Source: Burkholderiaceae bacterium
Lineage (GTDB): Bacteria; Pseudomonadota; Gammaproteobacteria; Burkholderiales; Burkholderiaceae_F
Assembly: GCA_025055385.1 (NCBI GenBank)
Contig: JANWXE010000065.1
Location: 1-41,252 of the forward strand
DNA length: 41,252 nucleotides
Reading direction: 5' to 3'
Part shown: piece by piece, positions 17,608 to 28,847 of the stretch
Numbering within the stretch: the stretch's first letter is position 1
Layout of the letters: every line of letters begins with the position of its first letter
The notes under the pieces: generated by a model
Told to the model about the DNA's origin: nothing
Databases searched by the model: none
The model's input: only the letters and a program-made list of their open reading frames with translations
Made by a program: the position numbers and the translations under genes

Positions 17608-17631
17608 GCAGCAAGAATTTGCTGCTTTTTT
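17608..17631 (+). terminator. Rightward terminator-like hairpin at the end of the oxoprolinase gene
   Basis: GCAGCAA-GAAT-TTGCTGC (perfect 7-bp stem, 4-nt loop) is followed by six T on the plus strand, which run into the reverse complement of the oxoprolinase stop codon. The T-run is oriented for plus-strand transcripts although both flanking genes are on the minus strand. Confidence 0.5.
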
Positions 17632-20600
17632 AAGACGATGGTGCGCCGAAGCCGCCTCCGCCCGGGGTGTGAATCTCGAATATATCGCCAGCAGCCATCT
17701 CGGCACTGCCGATATGCGGCAGCTCTTCGACGCGGCCATCAGTGCGGATCACGCGATTCAGGCCGGGCGCACCCGCTTGGCCGCCCGCCAGCCCGAAAGG
17801 CGGGACCACGCGGTTGTTCGACAGGATCGAGGCGGTCATCGGTTCTAAGAATCGAATACAGCGGATACCGCCGTTGCCGCCGCGCCAGCGGCCCGCACCA
17901 CCCGAGCCCGGCCGGATCTCGTAGCGCTCCACGCGCACGGGGAAGCGCAACTCCAGTACTTCCGGGTCGGTGAGGCGTGAATTCGTCATATGCGTTTGCA
18001 CGACGTCGGTACCGTCAAAGCCTTCGCGCGACTGTGCGCCGGCACCCAGATCCAGGATGCCGGCGCCGGACCCACCCGCGATGGTTTCGTAGTACTGATA
18101 ACGCGCGTTGCCAAACGTGAAGTTGTTCATCGTCCCCTGCGCGGACGCAAGCACTCCGAGCGCGCCGTATAAGGCGTTGGTAATGCAGCTCGAGGTCTCG
18201 ACGTTGCCGGCCACCACCGCCGCCGGATAGCGGGGTGCCAGCATCGAGCCAGCTGGGATTACGATGCGCAATGGCTTCAAGCAACCGCTGTTCAGCGGGA
18301 TCTCATCGTCAACCAACGTGCGGAACACATACAGCACCGCCGCTACGCAGATCGCCGAAGGCGCGTTGAAGTTGTTTGGCAGCTGCGGCGAAGTGCCGCT
18401 GAAATCAATTGTCGCCTCCCGCGCGCGGCGGTCCACCGTGATGCGTACGCGGACAATCGCGCCGTTGTCGAGCCGGTACTCGAAGGCGCCGTCGCGCAGC
18501 ACGCCGATGACTCGCCGCACGGATTCCTCGGCGTTGTCCTGCACGTGCCGCATGTAGGCGCGCACCACATCCAACCCATACTCGTCCACTATCTTGAGCA
18601 GCTCTTCGCGTCCTTTCTCGTTGGCAGCGATCTGCGCTTTGAGATCCGCCAAGTTCTGCTGCGGATTGCGTGCCGGATACGGGCCGCTGGTCAGCACCGC
18701 CAAGCACTCGGCCTCTCGCAGGCGGCCAGGCCGCCCCACACCCTGCCCTTCGACCAATAAGAAATTGGTGAACAACACGCCCTCTTCGTCTAACGTCTTC
18801 GAAAACGGCGGCATTGAGCCCGGCGTGATGCCGCCGATGTCGGCATGGTGCCCGCGCGAGGCTACGTAGAACAGGATCTCGCGGCCGGCGCGGTCGAACA
18901 CCGGTGTGATCACCGTGACGTCGGGCAAGTGGGTGCCGCCGTGATACGGATCGTTTATGACGTAAGCATCGCCCGGCTTCATGCGGCCCGCGTTGGCGCG
19001 CATCACGGTCTTGATCGACTCGCTCATCGAGCCCAGGTGTACCGGCATGTGCGGCGCATTGGCGATCAGATTGCCCTCCGCATCGAACACGGCGCAAGAA
19101 AAATCGAGCCGCTCTTTAATGTTCACCGAGTAGGCGGTGTTCTGCAGCCGCACCCCCATCTGCTCGGCGATCGACATAAACAAGTTGTTGAAGACCTCCA
19201 GCATCACCGCATCAGCCTGGGTGCCGACCGACCGCCGCGCCGGGCGCGCCGTCACACGCCGCATCACCAGGCCGCCTGCAGGCGTGATCTGCGCACGCCA
19301 TCCCGGTTCGATCACCGTCGTGGCGTTTTCCTCGGCGACGATGGCAGGCCCGTCGATCGCATCGCCGCCACGCAGCCGCCCGCGCAGGTACAGCGGCGTA
19401 CGCTGCCACTGGCTGTCAAAATACGCTTGCACAAAGGTCGCTGGCGCAGGGCTGCCCCCGCTCGCTAAGCCGCCGTCTCTGCCTGCATCGATCGCCTCGC
19501 CTCCGCCCGACGCCTCCACTGCGACGGTCTCCACGACAAGGCGCCGCTCGCGCATCAGAAAGGAAAACCGCGCCGTATAGGCGGCCTCGAACTGCGCAAC
19601 CATCGCGGGCAGCGCATCAAAATGGACCGGCAGCGCCGTGTCGGTGCCCTCGTACTTTAAGTGCACGCGCCGCTGCAGACGGATGCGCTCGCGCGGCACG
19701 CCCTGCGCCACGAGCTCCGCGCTGGCCGCCTCTGCGAGGACCGCGAGCCTCGCCTCGACCTGCGGCATCGTCTGCGGCAGCAGTGGACTCTCCACGGTGG
19801 CCTCGCGCAGCACCGCCTGATCCGCAAGCCCCATGCCGTAGGCCGACAACACGCCGGCGAGCGGATGCACGAAGATCGAGGTCATGCCGAGCGCGTCGGC
19901 CACCGCACAGGCATGCTGGCCGCCCGCGCCGCCGAACACCGTCAGCGTGTAGCGCGTCACGTCATGCCCGCGTTGCACGGAGATACGTTTGATCGCCTCG
20001 GCCATGTTGCCGACCGCGATCTGCAGAAAGCCGGCGGCCACCTGCTCGGGCGTTTTCTTTTGGCCGGTGGCGCGTTCGATCTCGGCGGCGAGCTCGGCAA
20101 ACCGTGTGCGCACGATGGCGGCATCGAGCGGCTGATCGCCGCTCGGCCCAAAGACGCGCGGAAAGTATTCGGGCTGGATGCGGCCGAGCATGACGTTCGC
20201 ATCGGTGACGGTCAGCGGCCCACCGCGCCGGTAGCAGGCCGGGCCGGGGTTCGCACCGGCGGAATCCGGCCCCACCCGCATGCGCGCACCATCGAAATGC
20301 AGGATCGAGCCGCCGCCGGCGGCAACTGTATGGATGCTCATCATCGGCGCGCGCATCCGCACGCCCGCCACCGTCGTCTCAAACGAGCGCTCGAACTCGC
20401 CCGCGTAGTGCGAGACGTCGGTGGAGGTCCCGCCCATGTCGAAGCCGATCACGCGCTCGAAGCCCGCCGCCAGGCTAGCCCGCACCATACCGACGATACC
20501 GCCGGCAGGCCCCGAGAGGATCGCATCCTTGCCCTGGAAGCGGTGCGCATCGGTCAGGCCGCCGTTGCTCTGCATGAACAGTAGCCGTACGCCCGGCAGC

Positions 20601-21295
20601 TCGGCCGCCACCTGCTCGACGTAGCGGCGCAGGATGGGCGACAGATAGGCGTCGACGACCGTGGTGTCGCCGCGCGCCACGAGTTTGATCAGCGGGCTGA
20701 CCTCGTGCGATACCGACACCTGCGGGAACCCGACCTGCCGCGCGATCTGGGCGATGCGCTGCTCGTGCTGCGGGTAGCGGTAGGCATGCATCAGCACGAT
20801 CGCCACCGCCCGCAGGCCGTCGCGGTAAACGCCCTCGAGCGCGCGCCGGATGGCCTCCTCGTTCAACGGCTGCACGATCTCGCCGTGCGCGCCGATGCGC
20901 TCCTGCACCTCGATCACCTGCGCGTACAGCAGCTCCGGCAGCACGATACGGCGATCGAACAGGCGTGGCCGGTTCTGATACGCGATCCGCAGCGCATCCC
21001 GGAAGCCCTTCGTGATCACCAGTACGGTCGGCTCGCCTTTACGCTCCAGCAGCGCATTGGTGGCCACCGTCGTGCCCATCTTCACGCACGCGATCTGCTG
21101 CACCGGGATCGGTTCTCCCGGCGCCACCCCCAGCAGGTGGCGGATGCCGGCGATCGCCGCGTCGCGATAGCGCTCCGGGTTTTCCGACAGCAGCTTATGC
21201 GTCACCAGCGTGCCGTCCGGGCGCCGGGCCACGATGTCGGTGAACGTGCCACCGCGATCGATCCAGAACTGCCATTTGCCGTCTGCGCTGCCCAT
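17630..21295 (-). CDS. ATP-dependent 5-oxoprolinase-type fused hydantoinase A/B protein
   Basis: Predicted cytoplasmic enzyme that opens the lactam ring of 5-oxoproline (or a related hydantoin-like compound) using ATP. Its 1221 residues are one chain carrying both HyuA and HyuB parts, as in eukaryotic-type OPLAH. The HyuA half (about 1-700) begins with the nucleotide-binding [12 protein letters not shown] and has SGPAGGIVG and [11 protein letters not shown] (about 285-295), the ASKHA phosphate loops. The HyuB half (about 710-1215) contains [41 protein letters not shown] and the terminal HTPGGGGFG. Substrate assignment to 5-oxoproline is inferred from the fusion, the IDRGGTFTD signature and the divergent TRAP transporter. 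N-methylhydantoin or acetone carboxylase-like roles are less likely. Confidence 0.85.
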
Positions 21296-21379
21296 GTCGC
21301 TTGCCCCGCTTGCCCGGCACGGCGGTGCGCCTTGACAGTCCGCCCACCGGGTGTTGCGTCGATGCTAGCCGTTTCTCCG

Positions 21380-21403
21380 GGGCGATGCGTTTCGCCCTAC
21401 ACT
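21380..21403 (+). promoter_or_regulatory. Candidate dctP -10 element with abutting inverted repeat
   Basis: TACACT (21398-21403) lies 33 bp before dctP. Immediately upstream is GGGCGA-TGCGTT-TCGCCC (21380-21397), a perfect 6-bp-arm inverted repeat where a regulator could sit between the -35 and -10 positions. A perfect TTGACA occurs at 21332-21337 but is too far away to pair with this -10. The 141-bp gap also has to serve the divergent oxoprolinase gene. Confidence 0.3.
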
Positions 21404-21436
21404 GTCCGCACCATCGACCCACGAAGCGGGAGTGCG

Positions 21437-22408
21437 ATGATGAAATCAAACCCCTTTGTTGCCTTGTTGCTCGCCGGCGCCATGACGGTAGCCTCGGCGC
21501 AAACCAAGTGGGATCTGCCCGCCGCTTATCCGGCGAGCAACTTCCACAGCGAAAACCTGGTGCAATTTGCCAAAGACGTGGAGAAGCTTTCCGGTGGCAA
21601 ACTGCTGATCACCGTGCACCCGAATGCCTCGCTGTTCAAGGCGCCGGAGATCAAGCGCGCCGTGCAGGGAGGCCAAGCGCAGATCGGGGAGATCCTGATC
21701 TCCAACTTCGCAAACGAGAATCCGCTGTTCGGCATCGACGTGTTGCCGTTTATCGCCACCAGCTATGAGGCCGCGCGCAAGTTAGACCGCGCCTCGCGTC
21801 CAGCGCTAGAGAAACTGCTGGCCTCGCAGGGGCTGCGGTTGCTGTACACCGTGCCGTGGCCGCCGCAGGGACTGTTCGCCAAGAAGCCGCTCAATTCGGC
21901 GAGCGACCTCAAGGGCGTGAAGTTCCGCGCCTACAACCCGGCCACGGCCAAAATCGCGGAGATGTTCGGCGCGCAGCCGGTGACGATCCAGGCCGCGGAG
22001 CTGTCGCAGGCGATGGCCACCGGCGTGGTGGAGTCCTACATCTCCTCGGGTGCCACCGGATTCGACACCAAGACCTTCGAGCATCTGAAGTACTTCTACG
22101 ACACGCAGGCCTGGCTGCCGAAGAACGCGGTCATCGTGAACCAAAGGGCATTCGACGCGCTCGACAAGGCCACGCAGGAGGCGCTGCTGAAGGCCGCCGC
22201 CGAGGCGGAGCGGCGCGGCTGGGCGGTGTCGCAGGAGAAGACCAAGTGGTACCTGGACCAGTTGAAGGCCAACGGCATGAACGTGCTGCCACCGCCCGCG
22301 AAGATGACCGAGGAGTTCAAGAAGGTCGGTGATGTAATGGTCGAGGACTGGCTGAAGAAGGCCGGGCCGGAGGGCCAGGCGATCCTGGACGCCTACCGGA
22401 AGATGTGA
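21437..22408 (+). CDS. dctP: TRAP transporter periplasmic substrate-binding protein (DctP family)
   Basis: Extracytoplasmic receptor of a TRAP transporter, 323 residues. A signal peptide is visible (MMKSNPFVALLLAGAMTVAS, cleavage after ASAQ). The family core GVKFRAYNPATAKIAEMFGA contains the conserved Arg that clamps the ligand carboxylate, followed by AAELSQAMATGVVESYISSG. The frame is open for some 240 codons upstream, but those lie opposite the oxoprolinase gene; the tandem ATG at 21437 follows GGGAG and starts the signal peptide. The next gene overlaps its stop (TGATG). Known members bind small carboxylates including pyroglutamate, and the neighbouring oxoprolinase makes that ligand plausible. 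Confidence 0.93.
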   Translation: MMKSNPFVALLLAGAMTVASAQTKWDLPAAYPASNFHSENLVQFAKDVEKLSGGKLLITVHPNASLFKAPEIKRAVQGGQAQIGEILISNFANENPLFGIDVLPFIATSYEAARKLDRASRPALEKLLASQGLRLLYTVPWPPQGLFAKKPLNSASDLKGVKFRAYNPATAKIAEMFGAQPVTIQAAELSQAMATGVVESYISSGATGFDTKTFEHLKYFYDTQAWLPKNAVIVNQRAFDALDKATQEALLKAAAEAERRGWAVSQEKTKWYLDQLKANGMNVLPPPAKMTEEFKKVGDVMVEDWLKKAGPEGQAILDAYRKM

Positions 22409-22917
22409 TGCGCGGTCTGCTGGACCGCGCCTACGACGTGGCCGCCTACCTGGCGGCCGTCTGTCTGATCGGCCTGCTGGCGATGGTGCTGCTGTCGATC
22501 GCCGGCAGGCTTTTCCATTTCTTCGTACCTGGCACCGACGCCTATGCCGGCTACTTAATGGCAGCCTGCGGGTTCCTCGCGCTCGCTCATACCCTGAAGC
22601 GCGGCGAACACATCCGCGTGACGCTGCTGCTGGCGCGACTGCGCGGCCGCTTGCGCTACGGCGTCGAGCTGTGGGCGCTGGCGGTGACGGCCATCCTGGC
22701 CGCGGTCTTCGCCTGGTTCAGCCTGCGGCTGGTCTGGCAGTCGTGGGTCTTCAAGGACGTGTCCACCGGCACCGATGCGACGCCGCTGTGGATCCCGCAA
22801 CTGGCGATGGCAGCCGGCGCCTGCCTGTTCGCGGTGGCGCTGATCGACGAATGCATCGGCCAGTTAAGGCGCCGGCGCGCACCGCACATGCCGGCCGAGG
22901 CGCTGCGCAACGAGTAG
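22408..22917 (+). CDS. dctQ: TRAP transporter small permease (DctQ family)
   Basis: Small four-helix inner-membrane subunit, 169 residues. Hydrophobic segments lie near residues 12-35, 48-65, 88-110 and 128-148. The conserved LAHTLKRGEHIRVTLLLARL lies between helices two and three, as is usual in DctQ. It starts at the ATG overlapping the dctP stop and is followed by dctM after 4 bp, so the three genes are translationally linked. Confidence 0.9.
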   Translation: MRGLLDRAYDVAAYLAAVCLIGLLAMVLLSIAGRLFHFFVPGTDAYAGYLMAACGFLALAHTLKRGEHIRVTLLLARLRGRLRYGVELWALAVTAILAAVFAWFSLRLVWQSWVFKDVSTGTDATPLWIPQLAMAAGACLFAVALIDECIGQLRRRRAPHMPAEALRNE

Positions 22918-22921
22918 CCCG

Positions 22922-24223
22922 ATGGGCGAGGTCGGCATCGCGCTGCTGCTGATCGTCGCGCTCTTTCTGCTGCTCGCCAGCGGGGTCTGGATCGGTCTGG
23001 CGTTGATGGGCGTGGCCTGGGTCGGCATGGAGTTGTTCTCGAACCGGCCGGCCGGTGATGCGATGGCGGTCACGGTCTGGGGCGCCGCCTCCAGTTGGAC
23101 GTTGACGGCGCTGCCGCTGTTCATCTGGATGGGCGAGATTCTGTTCCGCACCCGCCTGTCGGAAGACATGTTCCGCGCCCTCGCCCCATGGATGAACCGC
23201 TTGCCAGGGCGACTGCTGCATACGAACGTGGTGGGCTGCACGATCTTTGCCGCCGTCTCCGGCTCCTCCGCCGCCACCTGCGCAACGATCGGCAAGATGA
23301 CGCTGCCGGAACTGGCCCGGCGCGGCTATCCCGACCACATGGTGGTCGGCACGCTGGCCGGCGCCGGCACGCTCGGCCTGCTGATCCCGCCGTCGATCAT
23401 CATGATCGTCTACGGCGTGATGGCCGATGTCTCGATCGCCAAACTGTTCGTCGCCGGCGTGCTGCCGGGCCTGCTGCTGGCGCTGCTGTTCTCCGGCTAC
23501 ATCGTCGCCTGGTCGCTGCTGAATCCCCACCGGATCCCGGCGGCTGAGGCGCAGCCACGCCTCGCCGAACGGCTGCGCGCAGCCCGCCACCTGATCCCGG
23601 TCGTGCTGCTGATCGCGTTCGTGATCGTGTCCATCTACGCCGGCATCGCCACCGCCACCGAGGCGGCCGCGCTCGGGGTGGTCGGTGCGCTGCTGCTGGC
23701 CGCGAGCCAGCGCGCGCTGACGGTGCGCACCTTCGTCGATTCGCTGCTCGGCGCCACGCGCCTGTTCTGCATGATCGCGCTGATCCTGGCAGGCGCTGCC
23801 TTCCTGACGCTGGCGATGGGCTACATCGGGCTGCCGCGTCACCTGGCGCAATGGATCGGCTCGCTCGGGCTGTCGCAGTTCGAGCTGCTGCTCGCCCTGA
23901 TGCTCTTTTATATCTTGCTCGGCTGCTTCCTGGACGGCATTTCGATGGTGGTCCTGACGATGGGTGTGGTGCTGCCGAGCGTGCAGGCCGCCGGCATCGA
24001 CCTGCTGTGGTTCGGCATTTTCATCGTGATCGTGGTCGAGATGGCGCAGATCACGCCGCCGGTCGGCTTCAACCTTTTCGTGCTGCAGGGCATGACGGGC
24101 CGCCAGCTGCCGTGGATCGCCCGCGCCGCGGCGCCGATGTTCGTGTTAATGGTCGTCGCCGCCATGTTGATCTTTTTCTTTCCGCAGCTTGTCACCTACC
24201 TGCCGGGCCGCATGCGCCTGTAA
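22922..24223 (+). CDS. dctM: TRAP transporter large permease (DctM family)
   Basis: Large inner-membrane subunit that carries out sodium-coupled substrate transport. Its 433 residues with about 12 hydrophobic helices match the usual DctM length. Characteristic segments are LPLFIWMGEILFRT, AVSGSSAATCATIGKMTLPE, GTLGLLIPPSIIMIVYG, FLDGISMVVLTMGVVLP and MAQITPPVGFNLFVLQGM. The gene is intact and ends 5 bp before the start of the decayed dadA copy, which suggests dadA once belonged to the same transcript. Confidence 0.95.
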   Translation: MGEVGIALLLIVALFLLLASGVWIGLALMGVAWVGMELFSNRPAGDAMAVTVWGAASSWTLTALPLFIWMGEILFRTRLSEDMFRALAPWMNRLPGRLLHTNVVGCTIFAAVSGSSAATCATIGKMTLPELARRGYPDHMVVGTLAGAGTLGLLIPPSIIMIVYGVMADVSIAKLFVAGVLPGLLLALLFSGYIVAWSLLNPHRIPAAEAQPRLAERLRAARHLIPVVLLIAFVIVSIYAGIATATEAAALGVVGALLLAASQRALTVRTFVDSLLGATRLFCMIALILAGAAFLTLAMGYIGLPRHLAQWIGSLGLSQFELLLALMLFYILLGCFLDGISMVVLTMGVVLPSVQAAGIDLLWFGIFIVIVVEMAQITPPVGFNLFVLQGMTGRQLPWIARAAAPMFVLMVVAAMLIFFFPQLVTYLPGRMRL

Positions 24224-24228
24224 GCCCG

Positions 24229-24930
24229 ATGCATGGGGTCGTAATCGGCGCCGCTGTCGCCGCTGTCGTCGGCTTTACCAACACCTGGTGTCTACGCCAA
24301 CGCCGGCTTGAAGTTTCCCTCGTGAAGCGGCACGCAGCGGTCGCGCAGAAAGGAAGCTTCGCTAACGGGGCGCCCGGTGTACGTCATGCGCTGGGCGCAG
24401 CCCGGTATGGCGCGCAAGGTACTCGCCGACTGGCTGCGGCGGCGCGCGCCGGTGCGGCTGCGGCCGATGCTCGACCCCGCGCTGTGGCAGTGGCTGCGAC
24501 GCTGGTGGTGCGAGTGCGAGCTCGTGCGGTACCAGCGCCATCTGGCGCGGCTGCGGCCGCTGGCGTTCTGTAGTCGCGCCGAGCTGCGCGCGCTGCGCGA
24601 GCGATTGGTGCTGCGCGACGAGACGGCTGCCGGTTGCTGCCGGGGTTCCGCACCGCGCGGACATGGGAACACTACGCGCCGGCGCGGCAAGCGGTCTCAG
24701 TCTGGCATGCCATGAAAACCGCATTTCGCTCTTTCCGCTAAACGGCTATTCGGCGACCGTGCGCATCGCCGGCCGTGCCGTCGCGCCGCGCCGCGCACCG
24801 ATAGACGAATACAAAAAGGCCGCGCTAACACCGCTGGGCCATCGGCTGTGCATCGCGGGCACTGCCGAAACTTCGCGCGCGGCGGCAGCCGGCCCCCGGC
24901 GTTGCGAACACTACTTGCGGTGGCGCGCGA
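24229..24930 (+). pseudogene. dadA: Decayed D-amino acid dehydrogenase (DadA-like FAD oxidoreductase)
   Basis: No single frame is open across this stretch, but pieces in three frames line up in order with DadA. (1) 24229 onward: MHGVVIGAAVAAVVG, then LEVSLVKRHAAVAQKGSFANG, the FAD-binding N-terminus with its GxGxxG glycine changed to Ala. (2) Frame shift near 24370, then PGMARKVLADWLRRRAP, LDPALWQWLRRWW and SRAELRALRERL. (3) Shift near 24633, then FRTARTWEHYAPAR. (4) After a loss of roughly 150-180 residues, LNGYSATVRIAG, IDEYKKAALTPLG and CIAGTAE from near the usual C-terminus. (5) A further shift to FARGGSRPPALRTLLAVARD. The last 50 or so residues are absent. Intact relatives are about 420-430 residues. 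Alignment is from memory of the family, so segment borders are approximate. The product cannot be functional. Confidence 0.8.
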
Positions 24931-24984
24931 TCCAGAAGGTCTGGCGCTTGCCGTTACGCCGCAGGCACAGCGTAACATCGCGCC

Positions 24985-26448
24985 ATGGGCTTGGCGCTCT
25001 ATTCGGTTGCGCAGCTGCGTGCGCTGGAACAGTCCGCGCAGCGCGAACTCGCCCCGGGCACGCTGATGCAGCGCGCAGGCATGGCGGCGGCGCGCGCGAT
25101 CGGCCGCCGCATCGGCAACGCCCGCCGCATCGTGGTGGTCTGCGGCGCCGGCAACAATGGCGGCGATGGCTATGTCACCGCCTCGGAGTTGGCTCGGCGC
25201 GGCCACGCAGTCGTCTGCTGGGCCCTTGCGCCGCCGGCAACCGAGGATGCGCGCGCAGCGGCGGCCGCCTGGCGGGCCGGCGGTGGCACGGTGGTCGTGT
25301 CGCTTGATGCTGCCCAACGCGTCGACGTGGTTGTGGACGCGATGCTAGGAATTGGCCTGACGCGCCCGCTAGCTGACACCTACCTTGCCGCCGCGCAATG
25401 GATGCGCACGCTGCCGGCGCGCAGTGTGTTCGCGCTGGACGTACCAAGCGGTTTAGACGCCGACCGCGGCAGTTGGGTCGGAGGTGTGCCGGGTGTGCAC
25501 GCCGGCACCACGATCACCTTTCTCGGCGCGAAGCCTGGATTGTTCACAGCGGCGGGATGCGATGCAGCCGGTGAAGTCGTCGTCGATACGTTGGGGCTGC
25601 AACCCTCACCTGCACAATGCTGGCGATCGGATCCAACCGATTTTGCTGGAGTCTGCCAGCCCCGCAGGCGCGACACACATAAGGGCACATTCGGCACGCT
25701 CGGGGTGCTGGGCGGCAATGTCGGCATGGTGGGCGCCGCCCTGCTCGCCGCGCGCGCCGGGCTGCGCCTGGGTGCTGGGCGTGTGGTCGTAGAATGCATC
25801 GGCGCGCGCGAGCTTCAGCTCGACTGGGCCTGCCCCGAACTCATGTTGCGCGGGCTCGATTTGGAGGCGCTTTCGGCGCTGGTCGCCGGCTGTGGACTGG
25901 GCAGCGATCCGCCCGCACGCGCGGCGCTTGCGCGTACGCTTGCCTTTCCGCGCCCCTTACTGTTGGACGCCGATGCCTTAAACCTCCTAGCTGCCAATGC
26001 TGATTTGCTCGCCGCCCTGAAGACTCGCACAGCACCCACCGTGCTGACGCCGCACCCGCTAGAGGCAGCGCGTCTGCTCGCCGTGTCGGTGCGCGACGTG
26101 CAGCAGGACCGCTTACACGCGGCCAAGGCCCTTTCACAGGCAAGCGGCAGTTTCGTCGTGCTGAAAGGCGCAGGCAGCGTAATTGCCGCGCCGGATGGAA
26201 GGGCATGGATCAATCCGACTGGCGGCCCTGCGTTGGCAACGGCCGGCAGCGGTGATGTGCTTGCCGGAATGATCGGCGCGCTGCTCGCGCAGGGCTATGA
26301 CGTGCGTGAGGCCACGCTTGCGGGCGTCTGGCTGCACGGTGCGGCGGCGGAGATCCACGGCGGCGACTGCGGCCTTGCCGCGAGCGAAATCGCCGCGCTC
26401 GCCGCGCAACGTCTGCAGCAACTGCGCCGCGCGGCGTCAGCCCGATAA
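24985..26448 (+). CDS. nnrD: Bifunctional NAD(P)H-hydrate epimerase / ADP-dependent dehydratase
   Basis: Metabolite-repair enzyme of 487 residues that epimerises and dehydrates the damaged cofactors NADHX and NADPHX. The N-terminal YjeF_N epimerase domain (about 1-210) has VVVCGAGNNGGDGYVTASEL. The C-terminal ribokinase-like dehydratase domain (about 215-487) has GTFGTLGVLGGNVGMVGAAL, the LTPHPLEAARLL block and NPTGGPALATAGSGDVLAGM with its catalytic-type Asp. Start ATG at 24985 begins at the family N-terminus, with no obvious ribosome site. The last 12 bp overlap the end of the facing ABC ATPase gene. Confidence 0.94.
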   Translation: MGLALYSVAQLRALEQSAQRELAPGTLMQRAGMAAARAIGRRIGNARRIVVVCGAGNNGGDGYVTASELARRGHAVVCWALAPPATEDARAAAAAWRAGGGTVVVSLDAAQRVDVVVDAMLGIGLTRPLADTYLAAAQWMRTLPARSVFALDVPSGLDADRGSWVGGVPGVHAGTTITFLGAKPGLFTAAGCDAAGEVVVDTLGLQPSPAQCWRSDPTDFAGVCQPRRRDTHKGTFGTLGVLGGNVGMVGAALLAARAGLRLGAGRVVVECIGARELQLDWACPELMLRGLDLEALSALVAGCGLGSDPPARAALARTLAFPRPLLLDADALNLLAANADLLAALKTRTAPTVLTPHPLEAARLLAVSVRDVQQDRLHAAKALSQASGSFVVLKGAGSVIAAPDGRAWINPTGGPALATAGSGDVLAGMIGALLAQGYDVREATLAGVWLHGAAAEIHGGDCGLAASEIAALAAQRLQQLRRAASAR

Positions 26449-27147: not shown

Positions 27148-27801
27148 ATGGGATTCATCGAGGGATTGCACCGCTGGTGCGTAGCGGTCGCGCTGGCGTT
27201 GCTAGCCGCGACCGCCGCGGCCGTCAATCGCCCCGCGATCCTCGTGCTGGGCGACAGCCTGTCGGCGGAGTACGGACTGCCGCGCGATACCGGATGGGTG
27301 AAGCTGCTGGCTGACCGTCTGGCCGCGGAACGCACGGTCGGATCGCAGTATAGCGTCGTCAATGCCAGTATCAGCGGCGAAACCACAGCTGGCGGGCGCG
27401 CGCGTCTGCCGCAGCTGCTTGAGCAGCATCGGCCGCGCATCGTAATTATCGAACTGGGCGGCAACGACGCGCTGCGCGGACTGCCGCTGGCGACGGTGCG
27501 CGCCAATCTGCGTGCGATGATCGAAGCCTGCCAGGCGGCTGGTGCGCGGGTACTCTTGGTGGGCATGCGAATACCGCCCAATTACGGGCGCGATTACGCC
27601 GAGGGCTTCCACCGCTTGTATGCGGAATTGGCGCGTGAAACTAAATCGGCGCTCGTCCCGTTTCTGCTAGAAGGCTTTGCCGACGCACCAGAGTACTTCC
27701 AGCCCGATCGAATCCACCCGAACGGACGCGCACAGCCTCGCATGCTAGAGAACGTCTGGCCGCACCTATGGCCCCTGCTAGTGGACCTCAGTAAGCGATG
27801 A
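27148..27801 (+). CDS. tesA: GDSL esterase/lysophospholipase TesA (thioesterase I family)
   Basis: Secreted SGNH hydrolase of 217 residues, predicted to cleave acyl esters or thioesters in the periplasm. A signal peptide covers about residues 1-25 (CVAVALALLAATAAA core). The four catalytic blocks are present: GDSLS with Ser37, SGETTAGG with Gly77, GGND with Asn106, and DRIHPNG with Asp187 and His190. The gene overlaps mnmH by 4 bp (ATGA), so they are co-translated. Divergent pairing with a YbbA-like ATPase is conserved with E. coli. Confidence 0.94.
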   Translation: MGFIEGLHRWCVAVALALLAATAAAVNRPAILVLGDSLSAEYGLPRDTGWVKLLADRLAAERTVGSQYSVVNASISGETTAGGRARLPQLLEQHRPRIVIIELGGNDALRGLPLATVRANLRAMIEACQAAGARVLLVGMRIPPNYGRDYAEGFHRLYAELARETKSALVPFLLEGFADAPEYFQPDRIHPNGRAQPRMLENVWPHLWPLLVDLSKR

Positions 27802-28847
27802 ACTGTAGCGTCGTTTCCGTCGACGAGGCGCTGCGCGACCTCTCTGCGTTCGACGCGGTGCTTGACGTGCGCAGCGAGAGTGAATTCGCTGAGGATCATC
27901 TGCCGGGCGCCATCAACACACCCGTGCTCAACGATGCGGAACGCGCCGAGGTCGGCACCCTGCACAAGCGCGAGTCGGCGTTTGCCGCCCGGCGGCGCGG
28001 CGCGGCGCTGGTGGCACGCAACATCGCGCATCTTCTGGAAACCCGATTCGCGCAGATGCCGCGCGACTGGAAACCGCTCGTCTACTGCTGGCGCGGCGGC
28101 CAGCGCAGCGGCGCCCTCACGCTGGTGTTGGAGCGTGTCGGCTGGCACGCGCGGCAGCTGGAGGGCGGCTACCGCGCCTACCGGCGGCGGGTGCTCGCGG
28201 ATCTTGAGCGCTTGCCGCAGCAGTTTGAGTTTCGCGTCGTCTGCGGTCCGACCGGATGCGGCAAAAGCCGTCTGCTGCAGGCCCTGGCCACTGCCGGTGC
28301 CCAGGTGCTTGACCTCGAGGCGCTCGCGCATCATCGCGGCTCGGTGCTGGGTGCGCTGCCCAGTCTGCCGCAGCCCGCGCAGAAAATGTACGACTCTCGC
28401 ATCTGGTGGATGCTGCGCCGCTTTGACCCGACCCGGCCAGTGTTCGTTGAAGCCGAGAGCCGCAAGGTTGGCAACCTACGCGTCCCCGATGCGCTGATCA
28501 TGGCGATGCGCGCCGCCGCTTGCATTCGCCTGGAGCTACCGATGGCCGAGCGCATCGCACTGCTGCGCGACGAATATGCGTTTTTCGAACGAGACCCGGC
28601 CGTCCTCATGGCCCAGCTCGACTGTCTGCGCGCATTGCATGGAAGCGAGCGGGTGTCACAGTGGAAGGCGCTGGCTCAGCGTGGGCAGTGGGATGAATTG
28701 GTCGAGCGTCTGCTGCGCGAACATTACGATCCCGCATACCAGCGCTCTCTCACTCGCAACTTTATCCGAGCAAGCAAGGCTGACGTGCTCATACTCAGGC
28801 GCGGCCAGGATGCCGATTTTGCTGCAGCCGCACAGCGGCTGTTATAG
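27798..28847 (+). CDS. mnmH: tRNA 2-selenouridine synthase MnmH (SelU/YbbB)
   Basis: Replaces sulfur by selenium (through a geranylated intermediate) at the wobble 2-thiouridine of tRNA-Lys, -Glu and -Gln, using selenophosphate. Its 349 residues have an N-terminal rhodanese domain (LDVRSESEFAEDHLPGAINT and YCWRGGQRSG with catalytic Cys97) and a C-terminal P-loop domain (CGPTGCGKSRLL, about 149-160). Both key sites are intact. Activity implies a selD gene elsewhere in the genome. It starts inside the tesA stop and ends 27 bp from the facing ppiD. Confidence 0.94.
   Translation: MNCSVVSVDEALRDLSAFDAVLDVRSESEFAEDHLPGAINTPVLNDAERAEVGTLHKRESAFAARRRGAALVARNIAHLLETRFAQMPRDWKPLVYCWRGGQRSGALTLVLERVGWHARQLEGGYRAYRRRVLADLERLPQQFEFRVVCGPTGCGKSRLLQALATAGAQVLDLEALAHHRGSVLGALPSLPQPAQKMYDSRIWWMLRRFDPTRPVFVEAESRKVGNLRVPDALIMAMRAAACIRLELPMAERIALLRDEYAFFERDPAVLMAQLDCLRALHGSERVSQWKALAQRGQWDELVERLLREHYDPAYQRSLTRNFIRASKADVLILRRGQDADFAAAAQRLL

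Follow-up and report, generated by a model that had tools for sequence, protein, structure and literature searches.

What fills the 761 bp between dctM and yjeF in this stretch of Burkholderiaceae DNA, and what does it say about the operon around it? The window, meaning the whole 41,252-nucleotide stretch that was analysed, carries a set of TRAP transporter genes, dctPQM, that ends at 24223 (stop codon included), and yjeF does not start until 24985. The initial annotation, made from the letters alone, proposed that this gap of about 760 bp is filled by the ruin of a gene for a D-amino acid dehydrogenase (DadA), in ordered pieces in three frames, without its middle and its C-terminus, and starting 5 bp after dctM. 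The features of the locus are the following, with columns referring to a 419-column profile of intact DadA proteins encoded at the same place in other genomes, such as the family member G012:

17630-21295, minus strand: fused HyuA-HyuB of the hydantoinase/oxoprolinase family (1221 aa), intact and divergent from dctP; Pfam Hydantoinase_A, Hydantoinase_B and Hydant_A_N
21437-22408, plus strand: dctP, TRAP solute-binding protein, intact; PF03480, close to 2pfz/2pfy
22405-22917, plus strand: dctQ, TRAP small permease, intact; assigned from its position, with tblastn matches in the corresponding place of relatives
22922-24223, plus strand: dctM, TRAP large permease, intact; TIGR00786, E 2.9e-116
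24229-24378, plus strand: remnant piece 1, the DadA N-terminus, columns 1-44 and 48-50; profile searches and frameshift-tolerant alignment
24380-24607, plus strand: remnant piece 2, columns 51-126, in a second frame; 138.7 bits, 39/76 residues identical to G012 DadA, NF001933 E 1.7e-11
24639-24872, plus strand: remnant piece 3, columns 159-164 joined to 244-315, in a third frame; 17.5 + 79.3 bits, NF001933 E 1.1e-9
24884-24931, plus strand: remnant piece 4, columns 316-317 and 323-336; 30.4 bits for 24890-24931
24985-26448, plus strand: intact yjeF for NAD(P)H-hydrate repair (nnrD/nnrE); matches to TIGR00196 and TIGR00197 that exceed their cut-offs, and synteny

A dadA Remnant behind dctM

The gap contains three matches to the NCBIfam model of D-amino acid dehydrogenase, NF001933: 24229-24369 corresponds to profile positions 1-44 (E 7.5e-5), 24374-24607 to positions 49-126 (E 1.7e-11) and 24654-24884 to positions 245-321 (E 1.1e-9). 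The three are collinear with the profile, and each lies in a different frame. As separate protein queries, the same pieces match NF001933 with E values of 2.2e-6, 3.1e-12 and 4.6e-9, and a Pfam search of the three gave no match. The first codon of the remnant is an ATG at 24229, which places its start exactly the 5 bp past the end of dctM that had been claimed. Compared with DadA as described by NF001933 and PRK00711, the remnant thus follows the family in order over positions 1-126 and 245-321, but the copy in the window is broken, whereas the intact G012 operon copy, at 532.8 bits, clears the cut-off of 383.

The significance of the whole was assessed by a frameshift-tolerant alignment to the profile of 14 operon DadA proteins, with gap costs set once. 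The remnant scores 279.3 bits along a path that covers 221 of the 419 columns, uses three frames and meets no stop codon. By comparison, 150 dinucleotide shuffles of the stretch gave a mean of 25.5 bits (sd 4.1, maximum 38.2), its reverse strand gave 26.7 bits, and 49 further 800-bp segments from elsewhere in the window, read on both strands (98 scores), reached no more than 40.8 bits. The frameshift-aware comparison with DadA that the initial annotation had called for is thus significant, at 279 bits versus at most 41 in the controls, and its reading of a DadA fossil behind the TRAP operon is borne out together with the coordinates, the order and the frames of the pieces. The alignment also gained 24890-24931 (30 bits, columns 323-336), and the end of the remnant is therefore set at 24931; path segments of two to seven codons are individually not significant. 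Almost certainly, then, 24229-24931 is the pseudogene of an operon-borne dadA of the FAD-dependent D-amino acid dehydrogenase family that formerly lay between dctM and yjeF.

The State of Decay

Columns 45-47, 127-154, 165-243, 318-322 and 337-419 are absent from the remnant, so that both the missing middle and the missing C-terminus were correctly called. Altogether, 198 of the 419 columns are uncovered, and the losses include 107 middle codons and the last 83 codons. The C-terminal GHG..GW residues, which are invariant in 13 orthologs, went with columns 337-419. At the other end, in the GxGxxG motif of the FAD-binding loop, the second G (column 9) has become A and nine extra bases lie inside the loop. 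The curated cut-off of NF001933, 383 bits in a single frame, is missed by the remnant, whose pieces, spread over three frames, reach 22-46 bits apiece.

What is left has diverged as well. Individually, the three pieces match operon DadA proteins at 39-55% identity; taken together, over some 207 columns, they do not exceed 49% with any DadA, whereas the intact operon DadA proteins of the family are 54-69% identical to that of G012. Among residues invariant in the 13 orthologs, 36 of 49 are kept in the remnant and 13 are changed, a kept fraction that is if anything too high because the alignment was optimised for the remnant's own score; the most divergent intact DadA keeps 49 of 60, counted on its own columns. 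At conserved sites, the remnant has changed at 30/121, 28/133 and 22/50 first, second and third codon positions (0.248, 0.211 and 0.44), the highest of eight sequences at each, and the third position is still the most changed, on just 50 usable sites. The DadA of G012 has changed at 6/121, 3/133 and 11/50 of the same sites. The intact DadA of L104, from outside the family, has changed at 18/121, 16/133 and 11/50, and since its ratio of positions 1 and 2 to position 3 is similar to the remnant's, the substitutions by themselves are no proof of lost constraint. The loss of function is settled instead by the deletions and the frame changes, and it is this combination, the shifts of frame with the loss of the middle and of the last codons, that killed dadA.

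The window genome is a draft in 200 contigs, fragmented and 81.9% complete, and the alignment path is free of stop codons, both of which would suit a still functional dadA garbled in sequencing or assembly. Such an error would have to account for the uncovered columns, for an identity lower than that seen among intact family copies, for the 13 changed invariant residues and for the open frames of dctM and yjeF on either side. Furthermore, the other genome of the genus, G001, has no dadA either. With 107 codons gone from the middle and 83 from the C-terminus, and with no such gene in G001, the remnant is no read error. That reading was rejected on the missing codons, the changed invariant residues and the absence in G001, and is extremely improbable.

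The Same Locus in Related Genomes

Sixty-seven genomes were searched as the window's family, and 11 of them, the window genome included, contain this dctM (E up to 1e-150). An intact dadA is the next gene after dctM in nine (G012, G007, G018, G029, G079, G010, G028, G013 and G003), with a match that spans at least residues 1-414 of 419. The initial annotation had suggested looking for an intact dctPQM-dadA operon in relatives, and one is thus found in nine of the other ten family genomes with dctM. The order dctM-dadA-yjeF is seen in eight of the nine; the sequence of the remaining one, G079, ends before the position of yjeF. dadA also adjoins yjeF on short contigs of G024 and G017, in the former together with an incomplete dctM.

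The other two of the 11 are the window genome, with its remnant, and G001, with no dadA, and they make up the entire sample of the genus. In G001, the stop codon of dctM overlaps the start codon of yjeF (TGATG), which leaves no room for dadA. Elsewhere in the window genome (82% complete), further matches to NF001933 are confined to the first 45 profile positions, and other proteins of the wide DAO family are present. A single distant DadA, above the NF001933 cut-off and 33% identical to the DadA of G012, is encoded at another place in G001 (61% complete).

The gap might also have been put to new use, as two short open reading frames do exist in it: 24377-24715 on the plus strand (112 aa) and 24362-24724 on the minus strand (120 aa). 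The window, however, has 128 open reading frames of at least 100 aa on its two strands, many of them mutually overlapping, nothing corresponds to either at this place in G001, and the plus-strand frame crosses the piece boundaries of the remnant. On these three grounds, a new gene was rejected, and there is hardly any chance that one exists here.

Beyond the family, the best 80 dctM loci from a scan of named records (one of which, L088, is G001's own contig) include at least 50 with HyuAB beside dctPQM and at least three (L091, L099 and L104) with dadA next after dctM on the same strand; these counts are lower bounds, as many contigs are incomplete. In L095, L102 and L144, which are Burkholderiaceae without dadA at the locus, the next recognised gene after dctM is yjeF, whose match begins 18, 59 and 215 bp past that of dctM, respectively.

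The loss of dadA is ordinary pseudogenisation, unusually well framed by its intact, ruined and absent states. The locus catches a step of gene loss: other genera have dadA intact, it is ruined here, and the second species of the genus has none. No trace of dadA is left in the G001 lineage, and in the window genome the uptake genes and the divergent HyuAB are still intact beside the ruin.

Kinship of the Remnant

A DadA tree of 38 rows was built from the joined remnant pieces, the 14 operon DadA proteins and 23 other DadA proteins. Each piece by itself best matches operon-type DadA, which takes the top 8, 13 and 10 ranks for the three pieces, and the remnant falls inside the operon DadA group with support of 100/100, both in this tree and in one of 36 rows. 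The operon proteins form a group separate (98/95) from the 23 others, five of which come from the same genomes or the same family. Since the operon DadA proteins stand in a group of their own, their substrate may differ from that of known DadA.

Within the operon group, the remnant joins L091, L099 and L104, all from outside the family, at 98/92 in the 38-row tree. The support for its grouping with L091 and L099 vanishes when L104 and L073 are removed, and a clade of the remnant with the ten DadA rows of the family is not rejected (p 0.28, or 0.20 without the same two rows).

Conflicting Ancestry of the Transporter Genes

The genes of the locus do not all tell the same history. Trees were made from chosen rows (35 DctP, 19 YjeF and 23 HyuAB), and clade tests used 29 DctP, 32 DctM and 31 DctQ chosen rows; G046 and G038 were left out of the tests because of their very long branches in a large DctM tree of 92 of the 93 loci, from which the incomplete dctM of G024 was omitted. 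In the HyuAB and YjeF trees, the window sequence falls within its family (at 100/100 and 100/99), and a union with L095, L102 and L144 is rejected for both (p 0.007 and 8e-7). In contrast, the window DctP groups with those three (100/99), and the DctP test rejects a single family clade (p 0.0004; 0.0002 without G012). For DctM, the 92-row tree recovers the same union at 92/90, but the best tree of the smaller set lacks it (p 0.30); there, rejection of the family clade is marginal (p 0.039), and without G012 the clade is not rejected (p 0.22). For DctQ, the union is found at 68/90 and the family clade is not rejected (p 0.21).

Composition also sets the three genes apart. Their third-position GC contents (GC3), 0.873 for dctP, 0.889 for dctQ and 0.910 for dctM, are the three highest of 19 window genes measured, the other 16 lying at 0.69-0.83. 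Synonymous divergence (dS) between the window genome and G001 is 0.73 for dctQ and 0.59 for dctM, and higher for yjeF (1.41), the gene at 26437 (0.93) and the gene at 27798 (1.48). Because of the conflict with HyuAB and yjeF, the GC3 and the dS, with DctP carrying most of the weight, dctPQM (21437-24223) was probably exchanged in place by horizontal transfer, with moderate support, for a copy related to that of the dadA-less Burkholderiaceae. In G012, dctPQM is of yet another affinity and stands beside a still intact dadA. The locus as a whole suggests that transporters can be exchanged within a conserved gene order.

Several histories could connect this exchange with the death of dadA. The replacement of dctPQM may have made dadA dispensable: one tentative, possible account is that dadA died after the exchange with another Burkholderiales lineage, when an altered substrate or enantiomer began to enter and left the oxidase useless. 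If so, the locus would offer a natural series of transporter swaps in which the enzyme is kept (G012), decayed or gone.

Alternatively, dctPQM and dadA may have come as one block from dadA-bearing Burkholderiaceae such as L091 and L099, with dadA decaying later. The union of the remnant with L091, L099 and L104 in the 38-row tree speaks for such an arrival, which is nonetheless unlikely, as that support depends on two long rows, a clade with the family DadA proteins is not rejected in either test and DctP joins L095, L102 and L144 rather than L091 and L099.

The remnant could also be the leftover of a recombination end if dctPQM came from a donor without dadA, bringing its junction along and cutting into the resident gene, in place of slow decay. 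L095, L102 and L144 have the expected arrangement, with yjeF as the next recognised gene, and the TGATG junction of G001 has the same form as that of L095. This is quite improbable, however: the remnant begins with the DadA start codon itself, 5 bp after dctM, its pieces span most of the gene and carry substitutions throughout, as expected from slow decay, and the yjeF start of G001 resembles that of the window, not that of L095.

What the Operon May Do

Compared with the G001 copies, dctQ and dctM have dN/dS ratios of 0.18 and 0.14, respectively, and are under purifying selection. dctQ has no strong match in NCBIfam. The longest mechanical open reading frame for dctP, 20705-22408, starts inside HyuAB on the opposite strand, and the gene proper starts near 21437.

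Among solved structures, DctP is closest to 2pfz (E 4.4e-137 over residues 23-322), followed by 6wgm (3.2e-93) and 2pfy (1.8e-89). 2pfz and 2pfy are presumably the TRAP protein pair of Bordetella pertussis that was crystallised with pyroglutamate, and the window DctP is a close relative of both in sequence. The best solved relatives of HyuAB are the N-methylhydantoinase 7hk5 and the 5-oxoprolinase 6yra, and its best NCBIfam model is the caprolactamase CapA. With lactam hydrolases such as 5-oxoprolinase, N-methylhydantoinase and caprolactamase CapAB, it shares the Hydantoinase_A, Hydantoinase_B and N-terminal domains; the difference is that it is fused in one chain and reaches the cut-off of neither the caprolactamase nor the acetophenone carboxylase model. 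By its domains and solved relatives, HyuAB falls among the ATP-dependent lactam hydrolases.

PMC5812351 and PMC12344293 both mention a pyroglutamate-binding TRAP protein pair of B. pertussis. For one such system, PMC5812351 describes the membrane parts as seemingly mutated; in the window, by contrast, the membrane parts are intact and it is the neighbouring enzyme that is dead.

HyuAB lies directly upstream of the operon in G012, G018, G029, G010 and G003 as well, and the available sequence ends short of that position in G028, G013 and G079. G007 has a second, distant TRAP set (L076:13891-16583) between HyuAB and its dctPQM-dadA operon.

Because DctP is near the pyroglutamate-binding TRAP proteins and an intact HyuAB lies divergent to it, the substrate of the operon is probably 5-oxoproline or a like lactam, as judged from sequence kinship. 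In such a pathway, the transporter would import the lactam, HyuAB would open its ring with ATP, and DadA, where it survives, would oxidise the resulting D-amino acid to a keto acid. The initial annotation had suggested that the operon once coupled uptake to D-amino acid oxidation, and we infer the same, with the qualification that the family dadA may have evolved next to a transporter other than the one now present in the genus. The genus would now do without the oxidation step. The comparison points to a conserved operon, HyuAB / dctPQM-dadA-yjeF, with a binding protein that resembles pyroglutamate-binding ones, and offers a testable hypothesis for lactam and D-amino acid use in these Burkholderiales. 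In the literature, among the matches listed and judged by titles and the openings of abstracts, neither a dctPQM-dadA nor a HyuAB-dctPQM operon is named.

Two further observations concern the neighbourhood. G046, from the same order, has dctM followed by yjeF without dadA, and another FAD enzyme close by: a gene resembling L-2-hydroxyglutarate oxidase lies between HyuAB and dctP (L084:11567-12598, plus strand; NF008726 E 3.4e-58, below cut-off). In the window itself, 27798-28847 encodes the tRNA 2-selenouridine synthase MnmH (498.8 bits versus a cut-off of 266), which several relatives also carry in this position.
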